Assembly: GCA_021162935.1 (NCBI GenBank)
Contig: JAGGXR010000013.1
Coordinates: 1-38,175, forward strand
DNA: 38,175 nt
Direction: 5' to 3'
From: Deltaproteobacteria bacterium
Lineage (GTDB): Bacteria > Myxococcota_A > Polyangia > HGW-17 > SLPX01
Shown here: in pieces, positions 5,340 through 38,142 of the stretch
Numbering within the stretch: position 1 is the stretch's first letter
Layout of the letters: each line of letters starts with the position of its first letter
Translations under genes and position numbers: made by a program
Notes under the pieces: model-generated
Seen by the model: the letters and a program-made list of their open reading frames with translations, nothing else
Told to the model about the DNA's origin: nothing
Database searches by the model: none

Positions 5340-7199
5340 TCATAGTTTTTTTGCTATTTCATAAGCATCTTTAATAGCATCTTGTGCGTTACCTGCTTTT
5401 TTTGCATCACCAATAACATGAACCGAAATGCTATTTTTCAATTCATTTTCTAACGGATTAAAGCTTTTCATGCCAGTTGAAACAACAATCATATCAATAT
5501 CATTAAATTGAATATCTTCCCCATTTTTTTCTGCATAAACCATTTTCCCTCCAACCTTTTTAATATGAGTGTGGTCGCTAAAAACGGTTCCTTTTTCTTT
5601 CATCATTTTCAAAGAAAGCGCTTTTGCAATTTTTTCCATATCTCCACCAAAGTCAGTTGTTCGTTTAACAATAACGACCTGATTATTAAGAGGAATTAAT
5701 GCTGTCGCAATATCAACACCGATAAGGCCTCCGCCAATTATCAAAACTTTTTTGTCTTTAGGTAAATTTTCTTTCAATAAAATTTCCGCCCAATAAAATT
5801 TATCTAATCCATCAATTTTTATTTCTGCCGGTTTTGACCCGGTAGCAATAACTACCTCATCATAATTATTTATTAAGTCTGACCTTTCCGCCTCTTTGTG
5901 GATTACATTTACATTGTTATCATTTATCTCTTTAACAAAATACGGAACTAACCTTTCCATTGATTTTTTATTTGGAGTAAGCGAAGCAAGATTAAATTGT
6001 CCGCCAAGTTCATCTTTTTCGAAAAGTGTTACTTTGTGCCCTCTTTTTCTTAATGTTAAGGCGGCTTCCATTCCTGCCAAACCACCTCCAACAACAGCAC
6101 AGTTTTTTGATTTTGTGGCTTTTTCAAAGACATCAATCTCTTTGCCTACTTTTGGATTTACAAGACATTGAAGACCTTGTCCTGATCTTACTCCACCAAG
6201 ACAACCTTCGGCACATGCCAGGCAAGGACGAATATTCCCTTTTACTTTCATTAAATATTTCCCCACAAAATCAGGGTCGGCAATAAGTGCTCTCCCGATT
6301 GCAATATAATCAGCCTTGAAATTATCTGTAAGGCTCTTTATATCGTCTTCTGTATTTATCTGTCCCACGTAAATTGTAGGAATATTTGCTTCTTGTTTGA
6401 TTTTCTTAGCAAATTCCCACGTTTTTCCTTTTGGCACAAACATGTGTTGGAAATACCAAGGAGCAGTATCGCAAACAGTTCCTGCAGAAACATGGATGGC
6501 TTCAACGGATTTTTCTTTCAAGATTTTAGAAAATTTAATCATTTCCTCTAATTTAATTCCGTCTGGTATCATTTCATCACCACTAATTCTAACAATAATT
6601 GGCAAATCCGTTGCAAATTTTACGGCATCCACAATTTCTAGAGGAAATTTTATTCTGTTCTCAAAACTTCCGCCATATCCATCAGTTCTGTCGTTTAATT
6701 TTGGTGAAAGAAATTGAGCAACGAGATAACCGTGCCCAAATTGAAGCTCAATAATAGAAAAACCTGCTTTTTCCGCTCTTTTTGCAGCTTCTGCATATAA
6801 ATTTATTGCATGCAGAATATCATCTTTATCCATTTGTTTTGGAGTTACATCACCAATTTTACACGCTTTATCTGTTGATGACAAAAAATAATTTCCCGGA
6901 ATTTTCGGATTAGCCATCCTTCCAGGATGGTTCAAATGAGCAATTACTTTTGTATCAAATTGATGAATTGCCTCTGTTAATTTTTTGAGTCCCTCAATTT
7001 TATCATCATTGTCAATGCCAATTTGAGTTGGTATTTCTCTTAAACCCTTGTCAATATACAAAGGCTCAAGTGTAACTGCCCCAATAAATTTACTTCTTGC
7101 CTCATAAAAATTGAGATGTTTTTCAGTAATAACACCGGTTTTGTCGCCGTATCCTGTTTTGATAGGAGCAAAAATGAAATTATTTTTAAGTTCTATCAT
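5340..7199 (-). CDS. OYE-family NAD(P)H:flavin oxidoreductase, 2,4-dienoyl-CoA reductase type
   Basis: This 619-residue two-part flavoenzyme has an N-terminal old-yellow-enzyme TIM barrel (about 1-330) that binds FMN, with the family stretch GHGYLVAQFLSP followed by DGYGGSFENR. C326, C329, C333 and C345 have the CX2CX3CX11C spacing of the [4Fe-4S] site in E. coli FadH-type enzymes. A C-terminal FAD/NAD(P) disulfide-reductase-like half has two GGGLxG nucleotide-binding loops (near 368-375 and 478-485). The family passes electrons from NAD(P)H through FAD, Fe-S and FMN to an enoyl-type substrate, which cannot be named here. The start at 7199 has AAGGAGGT eight bases upstream. The gene is far richer in A+T than every neighbour and lies between two dead transposase genes, so I infer lateral transfer. 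It appears intact. Confidence 0.9.
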   Translation of the reverse strand: MIELKNNFIFAPIKTGYGDKTGVITEKHLNFYEARSKFIGAVTLEPLYIDKGLREIPTQIGIDNDDKIEGLKKLTEAIHQFDTKVIAHLNHPGRMANPKIPGNYFLSSTDKACKIGDVTPKQMDKDDILHAINLYAEAAKRAEKAGFSIIELQFGHGYLVAQFLSPKLNDRTDGYGGSFENRIKFPLEIVDAVKFATDLPIIVRISGDEMIPDGIKLEEMIKFSKILKEKSVEAIHVSAGTVCDTAPWYFQHMFVPKGKTWEFAKKIKQEANIPTIYVGQINTEDDIKSLTDNFKADYIAIGRALIADPDFVGKYLMKVKGNIRPCLACAEGCLGGVRSGQGLQCLVNPKVGKEIDVFEKATKSKNCAVVGGGLAGMEAALTLRKRGHKVTLFEKDELGGQFNLASLTPNKKSMERLVPYFVKEINDNNVNVIHKEAERSDLINNYDEVVIATGSKPAEIKIDGLDKFYWAEILLKENLPKDKKVLIIGGGLIGVDIATALIPLNNQVVIVKRTTDFGGDMEKIAKALSLKMMKEKGTVFSDHTHIKKVGGKMVYAEKNGEDIQFNDIDMIVVSTGMKSFNPLENELKNSISVHVIGDAKKAGNAQDAIKDAYEIAKKL

Positions 7200-7207
7200 A
7201 GTATGTT

Positions 7208-7215
7208 ACCTCCTT
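7208..7215 (-). promoter_or_regulatory. Consensus Shine-Dalgarno of the flavin oxidoreductase gene
   Basis: The minus strand reads AAGGAGGT, eight bases before the ATG at 7199. It fixes that start and is among the strongest ribosome binding sites in the window. Confidence 0.85.
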
Positions 7216-7238
7216 ATGGTGTGTTCAGCAAAATGAGA

Positions 7239-7267
7239 AGTGTAGTTGTTAGATCCGTCGATGTCAA
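7239..7267 (-). promoter_or_regulatory. Sigma70-type promoter for the flavin oxidoreductase gene
   Basis: The minus strand has TTGACA (7267-7262), a 17-bp spacer and TACACT (7244-7239), about 40 bp before the start codon. A perfect -35 box at ideal spacing suggests the gene arrived with its own promoter and could be expressed from it. Confidence 0.6.
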
Positions 7268-7634
7268 GGGGAAAACTCAAAAGCACCTGCACAGGATCCC
7301 GGCCCCGGGTTTCAGGCGATCATGAGGGACTCAGGGCGTCCTGTGGTAGTACGGCCATGACCGATGATGAAAGCCTGCTGTCCCGTCTACAGGAAGTTAT
7401 CTGTTTGCGGCACTACGCTCGAAGCACGGGAAAAAACGTACATGCAATGGGAACACTCCCGGGATTCAGATCCCGCGACTGCACAATTGCCCGATCATCG
7501 GTGGCCAAGACCGGCCAGTGATGCCTTACCCAAGGAAACGGTGCAGTGCACCCTTGCCCTTTGGTAGGCGACGGACATGAGCGCGATGTGCCGGGGTGAC
7601 CAAGATGTGCCGGGGTGACCAAGCCGACTGGGTC
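7268..7634. other. Intergenic stretch without a recognisable gene
   Basis: I see no convincing reading frame here. It contains a small hairpin near 7457-7474 (CGGGAT, TCAG, ATCCCG) and a 19-bp tandem duplication at 7585-7622. It lies between the foreign oxidoreductase promoter and a dead transposase-like gene and may be transposon debris. Confidence 0.5.
7585..7622. repeat. 19-bp tandem duplication
   Basis: GATGTGCCGGGGTGACCAA occurs twice without a gap (7585-7603 and 7604-7622). It is one of three short perfect duplications in this decayed region. Confidence 0.9.
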
Positions 7635-8165
7635 TCAAACTGCCAACTCCTCCTTCTCCGTGGTTGCTTGTTCTCTCCGTTTCAACTTCACCGGCATTCT
7701 AGTCACAGGACGGCGGACGCTGAGCAACTCCAGCAGCGCACGTAGCGACGCACGTGAGCGCATGCGGTAGTCACCGTTCTGCCGCTTGCGGAACTCTCGG
7801 TTCTCACGCTCAACGTAGTTCGAGGTCTTGTCGGCGTTTTCAAATCAGTTCCCTTCATCTGATAACCAGCCAGCCAAGCCTTACGATCCACCGTGTCGCC
7901 GACCTCGCGAAACCAATCGCGAAACCAATCGAGCACTGTGCTCGCATCAAGCTTCGCCAGATGGAGCTTGTCTCGGCCCCAGGCAGCGGCCTGCTCCGCC
8001 GACATCTTGTAGTCGCGCACCAGCTCGACGACCAGCAATCGCGCCAGCACGCTGTACTGGCCGCCCGTCTTCTAGTCCTCCGGCAGCAGCATGAACCACT
8101 TCCTCCCCTCAGGACAATCCGGGGACAAGTAGCAGCCTGCTTGGAGTTCGCCGACGCTTGGATGA
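7635..8165 (-). pseudogene. Decayed transposase-like gene, family uncertain
   Basis: Coding-like sequence can be followed through three breaks. It reads CYLSPDCPEGRKWFMLLPED, then a TAG, then KTGGQYSVLARLLVVELVRDY. It continues to MKGTDLK at about 7845, where a one-base shift moves to the frame reading KTSNYVERENREFRKRQNGD and ends at 7635-7637. The NYVERENREFRKR segment resembles the Glu-containing C-terminal region of transposases, but I cannot name the family. A 12-bp perfect duplication at 7906-7929 repeats WFRD in frame. The N-terminus is not recoverable, and beyond about 8165 there is only the 27-bp duplication and unassigned sequence. Function is presumed lost. Confidence 0.55.
7906..7929. 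repeat. 12-bp tandem duplication inside the transposase-like pseudogene
   Basis: CGCGAAACCAAT occurs twice in a row and gives the doubled DWFRDWFRE in the encoded peptide. Confidence 0.85.
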
Positions 8166-8214
8166 AGCAGGTGTAGCTCTCACAAGTGATGAAGCAGGTG
8201 TAGCTCTCACAAGT
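8161..8214. repeat. 27-bp tandem duplication
   Basis: A 27-bp unit beginning GATGAAGCAGGTG and ending CTCACAAGT occurs twice without a gap (8161-8187 and 8188-8214). It sits at the 5' side of the decayed transposase-like gene. Confidence 0.9.
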
Positions 8215-8416
8215 GCCTGTAGGTGCAAAGAAGCAATTGACGCCAGCCATTCAGTATCGTGTAATGCAGCATAGTATCGTGAGAAGATGGGTGGAAGAAA
8301 TCGCTCACGTTTGAACCATAAGGAGGACTCGTCCAGGCGCACGCCCTGCCTGATAGCCTCTGAATTGCTTTCTGCCCGTTTCTTCGCCAATTCGGACCAA
8401 GAAAGGAGCTGTTGTG

Positions 8417-10552
8417 ATGAAAATGGACCAACGTCTGGTGACCGTCTTAGCGTTCGGGCTGTTTATCGGTGGACCTGGGGCTGCACATGCCCAATCCCTG
8501 GCCAGGATATGGGCGGTCGACGACGGCGAACGAATCCGCCAAGATGATGTGAACTATCCGTTGGCGGATAGCTCTGACAACGAGGTGTGGGACGGTCATA
8601 CGATTCGAATCTTTGGCGCCCGCAACGAAATCGTCGCCTTCCAGCTCATTTTGGAAAACGGCCCTGCGGCTCTCGATAGCGTCACCATCTCTCTGGATCG
8701 GTTGTCCAACGGCGACAGCGTCATCGAAAATACCGGCTCAGTGGGTGACCCCTTCGACTACCGAGGCAAGCACATCGAACTCTTTACGGAACACTACTCT
8801 TCGGTGATCAGCAATACTGCCGGGGCGTCTTGGTGGTGGAACGGAGCCAGACCTTTGGACATCTACGACGGTGAGTACGTCGGTCTCCTTCCGGACGCGC
8901 TCATTCCGTTTGAAGCACCAAGCGGACTCGGCGGCGCGCCCTTTTCCATCGCACCAAATGTAAACCAAGCCATTTGGATCGACATCTATGTACCCAGAGA
9001 CGCGCCTGCAGGAACCTACTCCGGCGAACTCACCGTGACTGTCGGTGGGCAAACAGCTCAGCAGATTCCCATCGAGCTGCAGGTCTATGGATTCAGCCTG
9101 CCGGACGAAACGCACTTCAAGAATTTCTTCGTTCTGCCCGAAGGATCACGGGACGGACGAGAAGGCATCCGCACGAAGCATCCCTGCTCGGGCGGCGACG
9201 CCGAGTACGACCTGATCGAAGGCCGGTACTACCAGATGGGTCACCGTCACAGAATGGACATGAACACAAACACCGACCTGGATGGCATGGTCGCCCATTT
9301 CGGACGCTACATCACCGGCGAGCACTATCGGCCCGCACACAACTACGAAGGCCCCGGAGAAGGCACAGGCCATGGCACCTATTCCATTGGCACCTATGAC
9401 CAGCCGAACCACGGAAGCAAATCGGGATTTTGGCCGAACACCGAAACGGACTGGCGCAATGCATCGGATGCCTGGGTGACCTGGTTCGATCAGAACGCAC
9501 CGAACACCGTAATCTTCAAGTACTTCCCCGACGAACCCATGCACGATCCAGACACCCTATTTCCCATTATCTTGGAACGGGCCGACTGGATTCACAACAA
9601 TCCCGGCCCTGGAGGGGCATTAATGGTGTACTGCACGGTGAAGCTCCATCCAGACCTCTATGGATACGTGGACTTCTGGTCGGTCACCGGACAGGCAGGC
9701 TACAATCCTGGCGACGACGTGCTGACCGGTTACGACGTGCCGAAGGTGAACGAACGCCGAGCAGAAGGAGACCGGATCGGGGTCTACAACTCGCAGCGAC
9801 CTGGCCAAGGCGCGGTCCAGGCAATCGACGCCGATGCGGTCGAGTCGCGCGTGACGCCCTGGATCGGCTTTAAGTACCACATCGACCAGTACTTCCAATG
9901 GGAGACCGCGTATTGGAACAACCCGAATGACAAACGCAATGTCTTTCAAACGGTCTATCGGCCGGATGGCAGTCGCAACGGCAACGGATTCTTCTTCTAT
10001 CCGGGCGAGGAGGCGGACTTCCCCCAAGACGACCGTGGTCTGAAGGGGCCCATCGCCTCGATTCGAATGAAAAACTGGCGCAGAGGGCAGCAGGACTATG
10101 AATACCTATGGCTTGCCACGCAACACGGACTGGCCGACCAAGTGACGCCCATTGTCGACAGCATCGTACCCCGCGCCTTCGACGACTATGGCGACGGCTT
10201 CGACAGTCAAAGTAGCCAGCCCCTGTGGGCCCGAAGAGGCTATGAATACGAAGCAGCGCGCAGGAAAATCGCTGACCTGCTGGCTTCGGTCATCCACGAA
10301 GACGGTGGTACGGCCGATGCAGGGGTGGACGACGGAGCGACCATCGTAGACGGCGGACTGGAAGGAGATGCAGGAAATGAGGCGGATGCGGGTCCTGCTG
10401 CGACCAAGGACAAGGCCGGATGCAATTGCCGAACCTCTCGAGGACCCACAAATCCGATTCTGTGGTTGCTGCTGATTGCCCTCATCGCTCTCCTGAAAAG
10501 AAGGCGAATGGGCGAATCGAAAGGACGCTCGACGCCTTCATCCTCTTCGTGA
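8417..10552 (+). CDS. Exported DUF4091 (glycoside-hydrolase-like) protein with MYXO-CTERM-like tail
   Basis: This 711-residue protein has an N-terminal signal peptide (cut likely after AHA, about residue 24). A beta-rich N-terminal half contains an EIVAFQLILE stretch typical of DUF4091 proteins. A large alpha/beta domain follows, ending in RRGQQDYEYLWLA, the signature I associate with the DUF4091 domain of GH123-like proteins. After an Asp/Gly-rich linker (GGTADAGVDDGA) comes a C-terminal GCNC motif, a hydrophobic helix (PILWLLLIALIALL) and KRRR. That three-part tail resembles the MYXO-CTERM sorting signal and implies cell-envelope anchoring. AAAGGAG lies eight bases before the ATG at 8417; a GTG at 8414 directly precedes it. 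The substrate is unknown; hydrolysis of amino-sugar glycans is only an inference from the family. Confidence 0.8.
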   Translation: MKMDQRLVTVLAFGLFIGGPGAAHAQSLARIWAVDDGERIRQDDVNYPLADSSDNEVWDGHTIRIFGARNEIVAFQLILENGPAALDSVTISLDRLSNGDSVIENTGSVGDPFDYRGKHIELFTEHYSSVISNTAGASWWWNGARPLDIYDGEYVGLLPDALIPFEAPSGLGGAPFSIAPNVNQAIWIDIYVPRDAPAGTYSGELTVTVGGQTAQQIPIELQVYGFSLPDETHFKNFFVLPEGSRDGREGIRTKHPCSGGDAEYDLIEGRYYQMGHRHRMDMNTNTDLDGMVAHFGRYITGEHYRPAHNYEGPGEGTGHGTYSIGTYDQPNHGSKSGFWPNTETDWRNASDAWVTWFDQNAPNTVIFKYFPDEPMHDPDTLFPIILERADWIHNNPGPGGALMVYCTVKLHPDLYGYVDFWSVTGQAGYNPGDDVLTGYDVPKVNERRAEGDRIGVYNSQRPGQGAVQAIDADAVESRVTPWIGFKYHIDQYFQWETAYWNNPNDKRNVFQTVYRPDGSRNGNGFFFYPGEEADFPQDDRGLKGPIASIRMKNWRRGQQDYEYLWLATQHGLADQVTPIVDSIVPRAFDDYGDGFDSQSSQPLWARRGYEYEAARRKIADLLASVIHEDGGTADAGVDDGATIVDGGLEGDAGNEADAGPAATKDKAGCNCRTSRGPTNPILWLLLIALIALLKRRRMGESKGRSTPSSSS

Positions 10553-17756: not shown

Positions 17757-17910
17757 TCACGGCCAGGTCACCTGGACCGAGGTGCGTCTGTCGGTCGTGG
17801 TGCCGTCGCCGAACTCGCCGTCGTAGTTGTATCCCCAGCACCAGGCCGTGCCGTCTCCCTTGACCACGCACATGTGCCAATAACCGGCGGAGATGGCCTG
17901 CAGCGGCCCC
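17757..17910 (-). pseudogene. Orphan eighth RCC1 repeat, a 154-bp tandem duplication of the gene's 3' end
   Basis: Just past the stop of the RCC1 lipoprotein, the minus strand encodes another full repeat ([36 protein letters not shown]), ending VQVTWP and a stop, in a different frame. A 31-bp stretch (17746-17776 and 17900-17930) is identical in both copies, 154 bp apart. Since 154 is not a multiple of three, the extra repeat cannot be read with the gene. It also carries several substitutions relative to the in-frame repeats. Confidence 0.8.
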
Positions 17911-19407
17911 TCACGGCCAGGTCACCTGGATCGGGGTGTGTCTGTCGGTCGTGGTGCCGTCGCCGAGCTCGCCGCCGTAGTTGTATCCCCAGCACCAGGC
18001 CGTGCCGTCTTCTTTGACCGCGCAGGTGTGGTACATACCCGCGGAGATGGCCCGCGCGCCGGTCAGGCCGCTGACCTGGACCGGGGTGTGTCTCTCGGTC
18101 GTGGTGCCGTCGCCGAGCTCGCCGTGGTCGTTGAATCCCCAGCACCAGGCCGTGCCATCTTCTTTGACCGCGCACGTGTGCCAATAACCCGCGGAGATGG
18201 CCCCTACGCCGGCCAGGCCGCTGACCTGGACCGGAATGGAGATGTCGGTCGTGGTGCCGTCGCCGAGCTCGCCGTAGTAGTTGTCTCCCCAGCACCAGGC
18301 CGTGCCGTCGTCTTTGACCGCGCAGGTGCGGTTCGAACCCGCGGAGATGGCCCCCACGCCGGTCAGGCCGCTCACCTGGACCGGGGTGTGTCTGTCGGTC
18401 GTGGTGCCATCGCCGAGCTCGCCGTCGTAGTTGTCTCCCCAGCACCAGGCCGTGCCGTCTTCTTTGACCGCGCAGGTGTGGTACATACCCGCGGAGATGG
18501 CCCACGCGCCGGTCAGGCCGCTGACCTGGACCGGGATGTGTCTCTCGGTCGCGGTGCCGTCGCCGAGCTGGCCGTGGCCGTTCCATCCCCAGCACCAGGC
18601 CGTGCCGTCTTCTTTGACCGCGCAGGTGTGGTGCGAACCCGCGGAGATGGCCCCCACGCCGGTCAGGCCGCTGACCTGGACCGGGGTGTGTCTCTCGGTC
18701 GCGGTGCCGTCGCCGAGCTCGCCGTACGAGTTGAATCCCCAGCACCAGGCCGTGCCGTCTTCTTTGACCGCGCAGGTGTCATACCAACAACCAGCGGAGA
18801 TGGCCCCCGCGCTGGTCAGCCCGCTCACCTGGACCGGGGTGTGTCTCTCGGTCGTGGTGCCGTCGCCGAGCGGGCCGTAGCCGTTCCATCCCCAGCACCA
18901 GGCCGTGCCGTCGTCTTTGACCGCGCAGGTGTACCAATAACCCGCGGAGATGGCCCGCGTGCCACAACTCGCGCAGCCGCTTTCATCGTACTGGCACCCA
19001 GCCGTGCATCCCAGGCTGCCATCGTCATAACCTCGGCTCTTGCACGTTGCACCATTGAGATCTGTGCCGTCGCACTGCTCGCCCTGGTCAATCTGTCCGT
19101 TCCCACAGTCCGCGGCAGGCACGCACTGGGTCTCGTCGAGCCGGCACTGCTCGGTGCACCCCAACAAACCCGACACGTAGCCTTGGCTCCCGCACGTTGC
19201 CTCGCCCAGGTCGACTCCATCGCATTCCTCATCACCGTTCTTGATGCCGTTGCCGCAACTGCAGTCTTGAGGACAATTCGTTGCTGTTTCCCCCGAATCG
19301 CACACCTGATTCCCACAGGTCGAGTTAGAACCGGAATCGTCACTGCAGCTCACTGCAACCAATGCAAGCAGCAGGGCAGGATACATCGCAAATCGCAGGT
19401 GTCTCAT
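17911..19407 (-). CDS. RCC1-repeat beta-propeller lipoprotein with myxobacterial Cys-rich repeats
   Basis: This 498-residue surface lipoprotein has a signal peptide ending VAVSC. A Cys-rich region with [14 protein letters not shown] and [14 protein letters not shown] repeats follows, typical of myxobacterial outer-surface proteins. Seven RCC1 repeats of 50-51 residues complete it, each with [47 protein letters not shown]. Seven repeats make one complete seven-bladed propeller. At DNA level the repeats are about 150 bp and very similar, so recombination between them is likely. I chose the ATG at 19407, which has AGGAGG six bases upstream; a TTG lies directly before it. The last blade ends in QVTWP rather than VSGLT, as expected for ring closure. 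Ligand unknown. Confidence 0.85.
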
Positions 19408-19421
19408 CAATCTCCTCCTTG

Positions 19422-19457
19422 CAAATTCCTCACAAACCCCTACAAATTCCTCACAAA
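19422..19457. repeat. 15-bp direct repeat in the RCC1 lipoprotein leader
   Basis: CAAATTCCTCACAAA occurs at 19422-19436 and 19443-19457, a 21-bp period (two helical turns), just upstream of the ribosome binding site. It could be an operator or a simple duplication. Confidence 0.7.
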
Positions 19458-19632
19458 TAATGAATCTCGCCGGGTCTCAACAAGCAACCTTCGCGTCCCA
19501 CCGACCAAGCCGAATCCACACAAACGATGGACATCATTTTAGTCCTTCATATCCATACGATGCAAAGATTTCTTGGCCAACCTGTGCTTGCTCAGGAAAC
19601 ATGTCCGGTCCAAAATGGAGGGCGTCTATTCC

Positions 19633-28448: not shown

Positions 28449-29666
28449 ATGAAAACACCCGTTGCACAGAGGATACAGCAATTGGGCGAGTACCTGTTTG
28501 CAGGGCTCGACCGCAAAAAACAAGAGGCCATCCAGGCGGGACTGGACGTGGTGGACCTTGGGGTCGGAGACCCGGACCTGCCCACGCCGAGCCACGTGAT
28601 CGAGGCGCTCGCCGAGGCGGCGCGTCGGCCCGAAAACCACCAGTACCCGTCGTACAAGGGAAAACGCGCCCTGCGCCTGGCCATTGCGGAGTACATGAAA
28701 AGACGCTTCTCGGTGGACCTGGATCCGGACCGTGAGATCGTGGTGCTCATCGGGTCCAAGGAGGGCATCGCCCATCTGTCCTGGGCGCTCATCGATCCCG
28801 ACGACCTCGTATTGGTGCCCGACCCGGCCTATCCGGTCTACGCGGCCACGGCCCGATTCTGCGGCGGGCACGTGGAACGGATGCCCCTGCTGCGCAGCCA
28901 CGGCTTCTTACCCGACCTGGACGAGGCGGATCGGGTCATCCGATCCAATGAGGCGGCCCGCGCCAAACTCATGTGGCTCTGCTATCCGAACAATCCCACC
29001 TCAGCCACGGCGACCTCCTCGTTCTTCGAAAGGGCAGTGACGCTGGCCGCCAGACACGAGATGGTGGTGGCAAACGACGCGGCCTACTATGAATTGTACC
29101 TCGATGGGGTGCAGCCGCCCTCGATCCTCCAGGTTCGAAACGCCAAGGACGTTGCGGTGGAGTTCTACTCCCTGTCCAAGACGTTCAACATGACTGGTTG
29201 GCGCGTGGGTTGGGCCGCTGGCAACGCAGAGGTGATCGGCGCTCTGGGGCGCGTCAAAACGAACGTCGATTCGGGCGTGTTCGGCGCGGTTCAGGATGCA
29301 GCGCTGGCCGCCCTGACCGGAGATTGGTCCCATGTGGTCGCACTGCGCAAGCGGTACGCCAGGCGTCGGGACCGACTCATGGCTGGGCTCGAACGGGGTG
29401 GCTGGGACGCCATCCGACCCACGGCCACGTTCTTCGTGTTGGCGGCCTGCCCAAACGGCATGACGAGCATCGAGGCGGTGGAATGGCTCCTGGATCGAGC
29501 CGGGATTGTGGCCACGCCCGCCGTCGCCATGGGGCCACACGGCGAAGGATTCGTCCGATTCAGCCTCACGGCCGGCGATGACCGAATCGAAGAGGCGGCC
29601 CGGCGACTCGAAGCCATGGACCTGACTGAAGCGACCAGGTCGCCTAGAACGGTCAAAAAGCCATGA
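28449..29666 (+). CDS. PLP-dependent class I/II aminotransferase, LL-diaminopimelate aminotransferase-like
   Basis: This 405-residue aminotransferase has the N-terminal signature VVDLGVGDPDLPTPSHVIEAL, central LCYPNNPTSA and VVANDAAYYELY motifs, and the PLP lysine K244 in SLSKTFNMTGWRVGW. Late FVRFSLTAGDDRIEEAARRL also fits. The overall pattern is closest to the DapL/aspartate aminotransferase group; the true amino donor is undetermined. The ATG at 28449 has no obvious Shine-Dalgarno, and the open frame runs further upstream. The stop overlaps the start of the CHAT protease gene (ATGA), so the two proteins are probably made together, an unusual pairing. Confidence 0.85.
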   Translation: MKTPVAQRIQQLGEYLFAGLDRKKQEAIQAGLDVVDLGVGDPDLPTPSHVIEALAEAARRPENHQYPSYKGKRALRLAIAEYMKRRFSVDLDPDREIVVLIGSKEGIAHLSWALIDPDDLVLVPDPAYPVYAATARFCGGHVERMPLLRSHGFLPDLDEADRVIRSNEAARAKLMWLCYPNNPTSATATSSFFERAVTLAARHEMVVANDAAYYELYLDGVQPPSILQVRNAKDVAVEFYSLSKTFNMTGWRVGWAAGNAEVIGALGRVKTNVDSGVFGAVQDAALAALTGDWSHVVALRKRYARRRDRLMAGLERGGWDAIRPTATFFVLAACPNGMTSIEAVEWLLDRAGIVATPAVAMGPHGEGFVRFSLTAGDDRIEEAARRLEAMDLTEATRSPRTVKKP

Positions 29667-31252
29667 GACTCCACCTTGCATTCCAGGGCCCGGGCAATCT
29701 GGCCTGCACCGTGGCGGAGGCCACCCTGCGACAGCGCCACATGGTGGCCTATGACACGGATCGCATCCGCCAGTTGGCAGGCGACGTGCTGGACATCCTG
29801 CAGCGCGGCAACCAGACGCACAAGCTCACCGAGGCAAACCTCGAACAGCTTCGACTCGTGGGCGAAGAACTCGCCCGTCGCCTCCTGCCGGGCCCGGTGC
29901 TCACGGACATCCGTCGCACCATGGGGAACTTGACCCTGGAGCTGGACGAAGAACTCGTCTGGATTCCATGGGAACTCATCTATGACGGCGAACAGTTCCT
30001 CTGCCGCCGATTCGACATGGGCCGCATCGTGCGCACCTCGACCCCGACCAGGGCCATGATCAGCCGCAGTCGAAAGCCGGCGTCCCGCATGAAGCTCTTG
30101 GTGATGGCCTCGAATCCGGCCGGAGATCTCCCTCAGGTGGAACGGGAAGGCTCCGAGATCATCGCCCAACTCGACGAGGAGGGCAACCTCCTGGCCAGAC
30201 TCGTCACCGAGCCCGATCTCGGTCTCGTCCGACGCGAAATGAAGGACCACGACATGGTGCATTTCGCGGGCCACGCCGACCGGCTCGAAGATCGGGGACA
30301 ACCAGGATGGCGTCTGTCTGACGGCATCCTGCCCACGTCCGAGATCGAAGACATGGGCGCCGGGCGCCCCATGCCCCTGTTGGTGTTTTCGAATGCCTGT
30401 CACAGCGGCGCCTTTGGAGACCCGACCAAGGGTGCCTTCGGCTTGGCCCATGCGTTCTTGACCGCTGGCGTCCGGCATTACGTCGGCACCCAGTGGGAGG
30501 TGATCGACGGCCAGGGCGCCCAGTTCGCCCGACACTTCTACAAAGATTTGGTTCGCGGCGGCTCCATGGGAGCAGCTGTGCGCAACGCCCGCAACCGGGT
30601 CATCGCCGAATCCGGCGAAGGAAATCTGGCCTGGGCCACCTACGTGCTCTACGGCGATCCGGACTTCGCCCCCCTGCCCGCCAAGCCGAAACAGGCAGAG
30701 CCCATGCCCGAATTGCCGATCCGGCTGGGCGTTCGGGCGACAGCTCCATACAAGGGTAAAAAACGCCGGCCCAGTCCATCATCTGGCGACATGCGTGCCG
30801 TGCAGCAAAACCGTTCCAGCCAACTCCTTGCCGGCATTGCGGCCCTGTCCCTTCTCGTGACGGCAGTCATGGCAGTCCTGCTCGTTCTCCGCCAAACGAA
30901 CCACCACACGACGCACAACGTGACACCGGCTGCACCCACCGAAGCGGTCTTGCTCACCGTGGAAAGCCACACGAACGAGAACGACCGACAGGCAGGAGAC
31001 GCAGCAGCCCTGCTCGCCGCCTGTCTGTCGGAACGAATCGGCAAAAAGGTGCCATTGGTGCAACAGGCGGCCCCGGGTCAAGCGCTGGCTGTGGTGGCCA
31101 TCGAACCGAGGCGGCTGCAGGGCAAGCTGCTGCTGACGGTCACGGTCACCAAGGAGGGCCAGGTGGTCTATTCGAAAATCATCCCAGGAGACGGAGGCCT
31201 GCTGACCGCTTGCCAACCCATCGCCCTCGACGCACTCAAATACCTCAAGTGA
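29663..31252 (+). CDS. CHAT-domain (caspase-like) protease with C-terminal membrane anchor
   Basis: This 529-residue protein has an N-terminal region (1-150) containing LELDEELVWIPWELIYDGEQFLC, typical of the lead-in to CHAT domains. The CHAT peptidase domain (about 150-345) follows, with catalytic His204 in HFAGHAD and Cys246 in FSNACHSG. FLTAGVRHYVGTQWEV is a further CHAT hallmark. A basic linker (KGKKRRPSPS) leads to one membrane helix (LLAGIAALSLLVTAVMAVLLVL, about 388-409) and a roughly 120-residue C-terminal domain, presumably periplasmic. CHAT proteases are relatives of caspases and separase, and several act in bacterial defence or regulated proteolysis; the substrate here is unknown. 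It is coupled by a four-base overlap to the aminotransferase gene. Confidence 0.87.
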   Translation: MRLHLAFQGPGNLACTVAEATLRQRHMVAYDTDRIRQLAGDVLDILQRGNQTHKLTEANLEQLRLVGEELARRLLPGPVLTDIRRTMGNLTLELDEELVWIPWELIYDGEQFLCRRFDMGRIVRTSTPTRAMISRSRKPASRMKLLVMASNPAGDLPQVEREGSEIIAQLDEEGNLLARLVTEPDLGLVRREMKDHDMVHFAGHADRLEDRGQPGWRLSDGILPTSEIEDMGAGRPMPLLVFSNACHSGAFGDPTKGAFGLAHAFLTAGVRHYVGTQWEVIDGQGAQFARHFYKDLVRGGSMGAAVRNARNRVIAESGEGNLAWATYVLYGDPDFAPLPAKPKQAEPMPELPIRLGVRATAPYKGKKRRPSPSSGDMRAVQQNRSSQLLAGIAALSLLVTAVMAVLLVLRQTNHHTTHNVTPAAPTEAVLLTVESHTNENDRQAGDAAALLAACLSERIGKKVPLVQQAAPGQALAVVAIEPRRLQGKLLLTVTVTKEGQVVYSKIIPGDGGLLTACQPIALDALKYLK

Positions 31253-31334: not shown

Positions 31335-32753
31335 TCACGGAATGGCGCCGATGCCGTCGCCCGCATAGACCCGGGCGAGCATCTTGCGTACCTTGTACTG
31401 GACGTAGGGGAGCATGCGTCTCGGTCCGTATTCCCAAAATTCCTCAGACCACCAATGGATCGAAAACGGCATGTAGGTCGAATCGGCCAGGGTGACCACC
31501 GTGGGGATCCGGCCGTGTCGGCGAAGGAACGTCATCATGGCCTCGACCTCGGCGATGCCCTTGTCCACATGCTGGCGATGGGCGAGCCATTTTTGACGTC
31601 GAGCATCGGTCACATCCGACTTGAGGAACTTGTTTCTTCCCTCGTAGTGGCTCGGCGGTGCCTTGCGCGACAGTCCGGGGGTCAGGTCCACCGATCCGAA
31701 GTAGTCCAGGTCGATGTCCAGAACGAAGTTTCCCTTGTGGATCGCTGCGAGCAACTCCCGCTTGAGCAGCGCATCCTTGTCCGCATCCTTGGGCCAAGGC
31801 AACGTGGTGAACACCGACAGGGTCAGACGCCGCACATGGTCGAAGACGCCCATCTCGGAAGCCGGCCTGGGCAGGCGTAGCCAGGAACTGTCATCGGGCA
31901 CGGGCGGTCTTCCCGTGGTATCAGTCGATCGATCGTAGTAGAGTTCCCAGTCCTTCGATAGCGCCTTGATACCAGGATTTTCCTTGATCTGCTGGCCATA
32001 GAAAAAGGGGCGCATGACCACGTCGCCGAGCCCATACCAGTCGGGCTTGGGCCAGATGAAGTGCTTGAATCCAAGCAGGAGAATGCCGACGCTGCAGGGC
32101 ACCGCTGGGTCGTTGAGATACTGATCCAGTTCTCGCTCGGCGCTGCGGATGTTGGTTCCCTTCATGATGCCTCGACCCAATTGCAACACACGAGCCGGAT
32201 CCGCCAGCCCTCTCGTATCGGAATGGGAATCGAAGTGCACCAGTGTATCCACTGGATGACGTCTGGCAGATTCCGCCCACAGGGCCGCGGCGCGATGGTG
32301 CCCATTGACGGAGAAGACTGGGATCTTGAAATGACGGGCCAACTCGTTTCGGATGGGGTTGAGCCTCGCCGTATACGTGTAGAGCCATTCCCAAACGGCC
32401 GAGTCGTCGTCCCAACGATTCCGTTTGGTCAGCTTCTCCACCAGGTCGGCGTAAAGACGTCGCATCCTGGGAATCGTATCCGAAGCCATCTCCGGCCGGT
32501 TCTCATACACCACGATCAGACATTCGAGCTGACGCATCGCGGCTCGAATCGCACCGAGGTCATCGAAGTCGTCTGCCTTCTGGGCGGGACAGAAACCGCC
32601 TTTGGGCATGACGCCCCCAGGCCAGCCCGCAGGCTCGGGATGAGACTGCACCTTGGCACAACCACTCGCCACGAAGGAAAGAGTGAACCAAAACGCCAGG
32701 ACAACGCCTACCCAACGCACTGCGTCTGTCTTGAGTCGAAAAGAAACCGACAT
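31335..32753 (-). CDS. UPF0489 (arginase-like) lipoprotein
   Basis: This 472-residue protein has a signal peptide ending VASGC, so it is probably a lipoprotein. Its core shows two arginase-type metal-binding motifs: HFDSHSD at residues 173-179 and LDIDLDYF at 345-352. These match the UPF0489 family, whose members are predicted hydrolases of unknown substrate. HFKIPVFSVNGHHRAAALWAE precedes the first motif. AGGAGG lies five bases before the ATG at 32753, which decides the start over the longer open frame. It follows the flippase-like gene by 75 bp on the same strand. A lipid-anchored, exported version with both metal motifs kept is unusual to my knowledge. Confidence 0.75.
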   Translation of the reverse strand: MSVSFRLKTDAVRWVGVVLAFWFTLSFVASGCAKVQSHPEPAGWPGGVMPKGGFCPAQKADDFDDLGAIRAAMRQLECLIVVYENRPEMASDTIPRMRRLYADLVEKLTKRNRWDDDSAVWEWLYTYTARLNPIRNELARHFKIPVFSVNGHHRAAALWAESARRHPVDTLVHFDSHSDTRGLADPARVLQLGRGIMKGTNIRSAERELDQYLNDPAVPCSVGILLLGFKHFIWPKPDWYGLGDVVMRPFFYGQQIKENPGIKALSKDWELYYDRSTDTTGRPPVPDDSSWLRLPRPASEMGVFDHVRRLTLSVFTTLPWPKDADKDALLKRELLAAIHKGNFVLDIDLDYFGSVDLTPGLSRKAPPSHYEGRNKFLKSDVTDARRQKWLAHRQHVDKGIAEVEAMMTFLRRHGRIPTVVTLADSTYMPFSIHWWSEEFWEYGPRRMLPYVQYKVRKMLARVYAGDGIGAIP

Positions 32754-32828
32754 AAAAACCTCCTGTCCCCGCAAGGAGACGTCGCTCACCGATTTTCCAG
32801 GAGAGTGGGTAAGGAGCATCCACACACT

Positions 32829-36624: not shown

Positions 36625-38142
36625 GTGAGACAAGAATTCGATGGGTTAGTTGAATTCGCGAAAACAAGTCACGACACCCTGAGCGGATTCGAGGAAGAGG
36701 CGTGGCGTCGAGGTCAGACATTGTTGCGAAAATTGGTGCAGGCATACGTGGACCTGCAAGCGTATATGGAGAAGCCTGCAAAAGTGATCGGGGCGGACGA
36801 TGTGGCCCGCAAATATCGGCGCAACGGGGAAACACGAAACATAGAGACGATATTTGGGGAGGTAGATGTGAGACGAAGTCGGTACGAAAGTGGGCAGCAA
36901 GTGGCGGGGCTTTGTCCGCTGGACGGAGAGTTGAATTTGCCAGCGGGCAAGTACTCACATTCAGTGGCAAAGCGGGTTTCGGGATGGGCGACGATGGGGT
37001 CATTTGATAACGCAATCGAGACGTTTGAACAGACGTGTGGGACCACGGTGCCGAAACGACAGACAGAGGAATTGGTGCAGAGGTCAGCGGTTGATTTTGA
37101 GGAATTTTATCGGGGACGGTCGGTGGAAGAAATTCGGAAAAGTCAGAAGGATTCGACGATTACAGTGCTCACGACTGACGGGAAAGGCGTGCTGGTCTAT
37201 CCGCAGGATTTGCGAAAAGAGACGCGCAAGAAATTGGAGAAGGAATACGGCGAACAACTGTATTTTCGCAAACGGATGGCCCAAGTGGCGGCAGTCTATC
37301 ATGTAGAGCCGTACAAACGGTCAGCCGAAGATGTGTTGGCAGGTCTGATGGACAGGACAACGAAGAGGACGAAGGCAGCGCGGCCGAAACCTCAAGACAA
37401 GCGGGTATGGGCGGGAATCGTCGATGATAGTGAACAAATTATCGGCACAGCGTTCGAGGAAGCACTGCGGCGTGATCCGAAGCAACAAACGGATTGGGTG
37501 GTAGTGGTCGACGGAGCGGAACACCAGATCAAAGTAATCACCGACCAAGCTCGAGCCTGGTCGGTCAACGTGACGATTGTGTGCGATATCATCCACGCAA
37601 TCGAGTACGTTTGGAAGGCAGCCAAGATGCTCTACACAGATAAGCAACGACAACGCAAATGGGTCAAGGCCCACGTGGATCGTCTGTTGCGTGGCAAGGT
37701 CAGCCAGGTGGCGGCTGGAATCCGACGGGCAAAGACCAAACGTGGCCGGAAGTTGAAAAAGGCAGAACGAAAAAAGATCGACGAAGCAGCAGATTATCTG
37801 CTGAATCACAAATATTATATGCGATATGACCGGTATCTGAAGGCAGGATATCCGATTGGCAGCGGGGTCATTGAGGGCACAGTCCGCCAGCTCGTCAATG
37901 ACCGAATGGACATCACAGGTGCCCATTGGAGGTTGAAATCGGCCGAGGCAGTCCTGAAAATGCGTGCGCTGAAAAAATCCGGAGATTTCGAGACATATTG
38001 GGCGTTCCACGAACGTCAGGAACTGAAACGGAACCATCTTGCAAAATTTGCGAATGAGAAACTGCCTATGGTGTTGTCGGCCCTGACCCTGGCCGCCCGA
38101 CGTCGGCGGCGACAACTTCCAGCCCTACGTCTCGTCCCATGA
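36625..38142 (+). CDS. ISKra4-family transposase
   Basis: This 505-residue DDE-type transposase has an N-terminal region with FGEVDVRRSRYES and LCPLDGELNLPAGKYSHSVAKRV. Candidate catalytic Asp residues lie in ITVLTTDGKGV and WVVVVDGAEHQIK, and the Glu in YPIGSGVIEGTVRQLVNDRMDITGAHW, the strongest family hallmark. The start is a GTG at 36625 with GGA just upstream; an upstream alternative is not obvious. The frame is complete and ends 33 bp before the element's right end, so it is likely functional. Confidence 0.9.
   Translation: MRQEFDGLVEFAKTSHDTLSGFEEEAWRRGQTLLRKLVQAYVDLQAYMEKPAKVIGADDVARKYRRNGETRNIETIFGEVDVRRSRYESGQQVAGLCPLDGELNLPAGKYSHSVAKRVSGWATMGSFDNAIETFEQTCGTTVPKRQTEELVQRSAVDFEEFYRGRSVEEIRKSQKDSTITVLTTDGKGVLVYPQDLRKETRKKLEKEYGEQLYFRKRMAQVAAVYHVEPYKRSAEDVLAGLMDRTTKRTKAARPKPQDKRVWAGIVDDSEQIIGTAFEEALRRDPKQQTDWVVVVDGAEHQIKVITDQARAWSVNVTIVCDIIHAIEYVWKAAKMLYTDKQRQRKWVKAHVDRLLRGKVSQVAAGIRRAKTKRGRKLKKAERKKIDEAADYLLNHKYYMRYDRYLKAGYPIGSGVIEGTVRQLVNDRMDITGAHWRLKSAEAVLKMRALKKSGDFETYWAFHERQELKRNHLAKFANEKLPMVLSALTLAARRRRRQLPALRLVP

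Follow-up and report, generated by a model that had tools for sequence, protein, structure and literature searches.

The gene pair and its surroundings

The window, i.e., the whole stretch of DNA that was analysed, is a complete contig of 38,175 bp (C13) from a genome of 5.1 Mb assembled in 168 contigs. On its forward strand, an aminotransferase gene, most likely dapL, is directly followed by a gene encoding a CHAT domain, a transmembrane helix and an external domain (the CHAT gene). The features of the pair are as follows:

28449-29666, + strand: dapL, 405 aa, from ATG at 28449 to TGA at 29666, with the PLP lysine Lys244
29663-31252, + strand: CHAT gene, 529 aa, from ATG at 29663 to TGA at 31252, encoding the CHAT-TM-external-domain protein
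29663-29666, + strand: ATGA overlap of the dapL stop and the CHAT start, 4 nt, read from the sequence
29663-30685, + strand: CHAT protease region, residues 1-341 (PF12770 at residues 66-332; AlphaFold model)
30833-30889, + strand: single transmembrane helix, residues 391-409, from hydropathy, with a basic stretch on its N-terminal side
30923-31249, + strand: external C-terminal domain, residues 421-529, with Cys454 and Cys517 and a possible CsgG/PelC/LpoB-like fold

A sequence-only reading had proposed that the two proteins form a functional module. The elements on which it was built, namely the ATGA overlap with the coordinates of both genes, the residues His204, Cys246 and Lys244, a single membrane helix and an external domain, were all confirmed. 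Three further genomes have conserved both genes side by side, which rules out a chance pair of open reading frames. Stop/start codon overlaps are common and able to couple translation (PMC6728339), so dapL and the CHAT gene are likely co-translated. No other PF12770 match occurs in the window genome, so the CHAT gene is present as a single copy. Its neighbours in the window are housekeeping and exopolysaccharide-type genes.

Several other features of the contig were recorded. Downstream of the CHAT gene lies a convergent gene (31335-32825) for a lipoprotein-like product with weak similarity to UPF0489/peptide-arginase proteins. An Old-yellow-enzyme/dienoyl-CoA-reductase-like gene, recognised by eye at 5340-7199, lies in a stretch of about 39% GC, compared with about 60% GC for the contig, and this stretch looks like an acquired or mis-assembled piece. 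A lipoprotein-like ORF with tandem RCC1-like repeats (17911-19410, by eye) has a long open frame running antisense to it (17893-19542, + strand). The two ends of the contig carry transposase-like ORFs (257-1930 and 36625-38142, by eye), which are probably the assembly break points.

Assignment of the aminotransferase

The aminotransferase matches Pfam Aminotran_1_2 (E 4.4e-63), and its PLP lysine, Lys244, lies within the motif SLSKTFNM. Against NCBIfam NF006756 (LL-DAP aminotransferase), it scores 521.9 bits, above the cut-off of 507. We infer its exact substrate, since its score against the TIGR03540 equivalog (513.4) lies below that model's cut-off of 593.25. DapL makes LL-DAP directly from tetrahydrodipicolinate in a single step and so does without DapD, DapC and DapE (PMC3102117). 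In the window genome, which is 97% complete, dapF was found and dapD gave no match, PF14805 being the only dapD model used. With dapF present and dapD absent, DapL is probably the sole route of this genome to LL-DAP. Profile matches and pathway context together suggest that the aminotransferase is most likely a housekeeping DapL of lysine and peptidoglycan biosynthesis. It shares with known DapL the NF006756 match, the PLP lysine and the pathway context, but differs in falling short of the equivalog cut-off.

The CHAT protease region

The CHAT protein matches PF12770 with an E-value of 1.7e-33 (116.8 bits, curated cut-off 24). The catalytic dyad consists of His204 and Cys246. It is invariant in ten sequences of the class and likewise throughout alignment A3, whose 17 sequences include distant relatives from Desulfobacterota and Omnitrophota. 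The AlphaFold model has a mean pLDDT of 80.7 overall, and values are mostly above 85 in residues 1-341. In this region, the model predicts a pseudo-protease half and a catalytic half, i.e., the two-half fold of separase-type CHAT proteins. VIA gave Z scores of 24.6 with separase ctSPD, 23.1 with Csx29 and 20.9 with DdvA; matches to separase and Csx29 ranged from 20 to 25. The protein is hence described here as a candidate protease of the separase/Csx29 type, its proteolytic activity being predicted from fold and dyad.

The fold might also serve as a regulatory scaffold that does not cleave, as it might in a membrane anti-sigma factor. The transmembrane anti-sigma factor DdvA does share it, at 17% identity. 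However, a strictly invariant His-Cys dyad argues for catalysis, and no adjacent sigma factor gene was recognised. We regard the scaffold explanation as highly improbable.

The membrane helix and the external domain

Hydropathy places one hydrophobic helix at residues 391-409, and in the model the helix extends from 385 to 412. All relatives examined likewise have a hydrophobic helix after the CHAT domain. The basic stretch before the helix points to a cytoplasmic location of the CHAT domain, and the C-terminal domain would then probably be extracytoplasmic, as the earlier reading had assumed.

The external domains evolve fast and vary between lineages, being 9-21% identical to that of the window protein. 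Nevertheless, Cys454 and Cys517 are invariant among 12 external domains, and 24 of the 26 cysteines in these domains fall in the two columns. This conservation suggests a disulfide bond in an oxidising compartment.

The full model predicts a strand, a helix, a sheet and a final helix for the external domain; folded alone, the domain yields a low-confidence model (pLDDT 50.5). It matches no Pfam family. Its profile gave only chance matches (spidroins) among PDB sequences and a weak match to the outer domains of Desulfobacterota CHAT proteins (probability 86%, 6% identity). The outer domain of one such Desulfobacterota relative matches CsgG and LpoB over the cut-off. A Foldseek search returned PelC (E 8e-4, TM 0.40 by target). 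The resemblance to CsgG, PelC and LpoB is weak, and a fold of this kind is possible.

In two genomes in which dapL precedes the CHAT gene (G002 and G005), the CHAT protein ends just after the helix and the external domain is lost, a loss seen in one family. A frameshift was considered as the cause and rejected: both proteins share the same end point, and no convincing sequence of the C-terminal domain follows the CHAT stop. The domain is thus dispensable in these two genomes, and sensing cannot rely on it there.

Distribution and upstream neighbours of CHAT orthologues

A scan of genome contigs with the single sequence gave no relative; an alignment-based scan did. CHAT matches with an E-value of 1e-30 or better were found in 19 of 317 genomes of the class, the window's own included. 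Within the order of the window genome, 11 of 13 genomes carry one copy each, and the remaining two are 70-73% complete.

This distribution bears on a role in anti-phage defence or programmed cell death. CHAT and caspase-like proteases operate in type III-E CRISPR and SAVED-CHAT systems, and PADLOC reported a weak SAVED_CHAT match (E 1.5e-5). The match is confined to residues 181-399, i.e., to part of the CHAT region and the linker, and no SAVED domain appeared in the Pfam scan of the protein. Moreover, a gene kept as one copy in nearly the whole order is unlike the patchy genes of defence, its neighbours are housekeeping genes, and inspection of the window ORFs by eye showed neither CRISPR nor a nucleotide cyclase or a SAVED partner. 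A defence module, one of the roles first suggested for the pair, is accordingly given very little credence.

In 18 genomes of the class, it was possible to read which gene immediately precedes the CHAT orthologue:

dapL, four genomes: the window's own, G001, G002 and G005 (families f1 and f2 of the window's order)
folK, seven genomes: G013, G021, G029, G037, G045, G053 and G138 (families f5, f13, f16, f18 and f21)
ldcA (LD-carboxypeptidase, peptidase S66), five genomes: G004, G006, G007, G008 and G009 (family f4)
rrf2 (Rrf2 regulator), one genome: G003 (family f3)
none close, one genome: G097 (family f22)

Representatives were identified with Pfam for folK (G013), the S66 peptidase (G007) and Rrf2 (G003), and the rest were assigned by blastp. 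Overlaps of 4 nt join the CHAT gene to dapL in the window's own genome, G001 and G005, to ldcA in G006 to G009 and to folK in G013, provided that the G013 CHAT gene begins at its first ATG. The remaining gaps that were read are short, at most about 75 nt. The G002 junction contains a repeated stretch resembling a duplicated ATGA overlap.

In a tree built from 25 CHAT cores, four changes explain all upstream-gene labels, which is the minimum possible, and the labels hence follow lineage; the deep nodes of this tree are unresolved and some branches long, and it favours neither dapL nor folK as the first partner. In three of the folK genomes (G013, G053 and G138), dapL is also nearby, about 1-5 kb upstream and separated from the CHAT gene by folK, and the single folK of the window genome lies apart on another contig (C100). 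A simple account is that the contact between dapL and the CHAT gene may have arisen through the loss or removal of intervening DNA. Judged from gene order, the CHAT gene usually closes a short putative operon whose first gene varies by lineage.

Some further genes were noted at these loci. In the ldcA group (L032 to L036), four of the five loci show the ATGA overlap. The gene birA lies downstream of the CHAT orthologue in G006, G008 and G009, and birA is also found in G010. Flp/Tad-pilus-like assembly genes were seen by eye near folK and the CHAT gene in three genomes (L026, L028 and L030).

Is DapL a dedicated partner?

The proposal of a dedicated pair holds that the CHAT protease cleaves DapL or is regulated by it, linking the state of the envelope to DAP and lysine supply. 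It can draw on the overlap and on an adjacency that spans two families of the order, in four genomes, at 45-60% CHAT identity. Moreover, the products of overlapping gene pairs are often subunits of a single complex (PMC10666635). Against it, folK, ldcA or rrf2 precede most CHAT orthologues at equally tight spacing. In G015, G023, G038 and G047, DapL orthologues of more than 50% identity are unaccompanied by a close relative of the CHAT protein. Neither dapL nor folK was present in the DNA read around the distant CHAT relatives, which are largely Omnitrophota and Desulfobacterota MAGs, many on short contigs. Since the same coupling occurs with folK and ldcA, the overlap is no sign that DapL is a partner, an inhibitor or a substrate. 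On these sequence grounds, a role of DapL as dedicated partner or as substrate is unlikely, and we consider the whole proposal very unlikely.

The survey for the same adjacent pair, which the sequence-only reading had named among its checks, gave a divided outcome. The pairing does reach beyond this genome, to three others, but most lineages have other genes directly upstream of the CHAT gene. This comes close to what was to refute the module. Of the coupling, the overlap is real and its effect on translation probable, but the same overlap with folK and ldcA makes it no sign of partnership. Most likely, the dapL-CHAT pairing is a local accident of gene order and not a dedicated two-protein module. 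A tempting but probably wrong partner is thereby removed for the membrane-anchored protease. More generally, genes that overlap by ATGA are not necessarily functional partners: here, one and the same gene shows this overlap with three upstream genes that are unrelated to each other.

Proposed role of the CHAT protein

The best explanation, which we hold to be probably correct, is an ordinary operon of a housekeeping DapL and a membrane-tethered CHAT signalling protease without a dedicated partnership. The CHAT gene would sit behind lineage-specific housekeeping genes and draw transcription and reinitiating ribosomes from them, and the two proteins need not interact. The separase/Csx29-like protease would lie in the cytoplasm, tethered to the inner membrane by one helix. 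In the lineages keeping it, the outer-side domain, probably stabilised by a disulfide, would be the input or docking part, and an activator may act through it. Once activated, the protease would cut a cytoplasmic substrate encoded away from the CHAT gene. Two counterpoints deserve mention. The overlap is kept in three dapL genomes and the adjacency in two families, so co-expression might be beneficial in these lineages. Furthermore, dapL and ldcA are both related to peptidoglycan and DAP, and the swapped partners are thus not fully random.

The second counterpoint is the basis of a cell-wall explanation, in which an LpoB/CsgG-like periplasmic domain monitors peptidoglycan and the gene stays near DAP/murein genes for co-regulation, without direct contact of the proteins. 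The dapL (f1/f2) and ldcA (f4) neighbours, the nearby dapL in three folK genomes and the CsgG and LpoB matches of the Desulfobacterota relative speak for it. Nevertheless, the commonest neighbour is folK, the outer domain of the window protein fits no family, and two dapL genomes have no outer domain. This explanation appears rather unlikely. Of much the same, perhaps very slightly better, standing is a conserved one-protein receptor of the caspase/separase type, crossing the membrane once, whose disulfide-bearing periplasmic domain would sense the cell-wall or redox state, activate the CHAT domain and have it cut an anti-sigma-type regulator, the gene lying in DAP/murein operons in some lineages. 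A transmembrane receptor, if true, would offer a simple bacterial model of separase/caspase-fold signalling across a membrane. Under the preferred operon explanation, the CHAT protein is possibly envelope-responsive. What the analysis singles out as conserved is the His-Cys dyad of the protease together with its membrane helix, and the cysteine pair in those proteins that retain the outer domain.

Comparison with known systems

The top structural match is separase ctSPD, with 307 residues aligned at an rmsd of 3.7 and 17% identity. The likeness is very remote: the eukaryotic separase acts in cohesin cleavage and has no membrane anchor. DdvA (PDB 8rot), a membrane protein with the CHAT/separase fold, aligns over 270 residues. 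It is much larger (a chain of 897 residues), is an anti-sigma factor by its entry title and was compared by fold only.

In Desulfobacterota, the proteins of L053, L056 and L075 share the order of a CHAT domain, one transmembrane helix and an outer domain. No dapL or folK neighbour was found beside them. In contrast to the window protein, the outer domains of these CHAT-TM-(TPR)-CsgG/LpoB-like proteins have no conserved cysteine pair. L053 also differs in having TPR and nucleotide-cyclase domains; its gene (5902-9153) fuses a class III nucleotide cyclase, a CHAT domain, one membrane helix, TPR and a CsgG/LpoB-like domain. Two relatives, L056 and L098, are carried by the cultured bacterium Desulfonema magnum. 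Among the papers searched, none joined a CHAT domain, CsgG and a transmembrane segment.

Csx29, the TPR-CHAT protein of type III-E CRISPR (Craspase), shares the separase-like CHAT fold over residues 1-336. The window protein has no TPR match in Pfam and no Cas7-11 context, no Cas genes being seen by eye in the window ORFs of at least 200 aa, and it possesses a membrane anchor and an extra external domain. Csx29 is an endopeptidase under allosteric control; once switched on, it cuts Csx30, a protein that binds a sigma factor and inhibits it (PMC10028731). The proposal of a membrane-held signalling protease rests on the analogy with this switch and cleavage.
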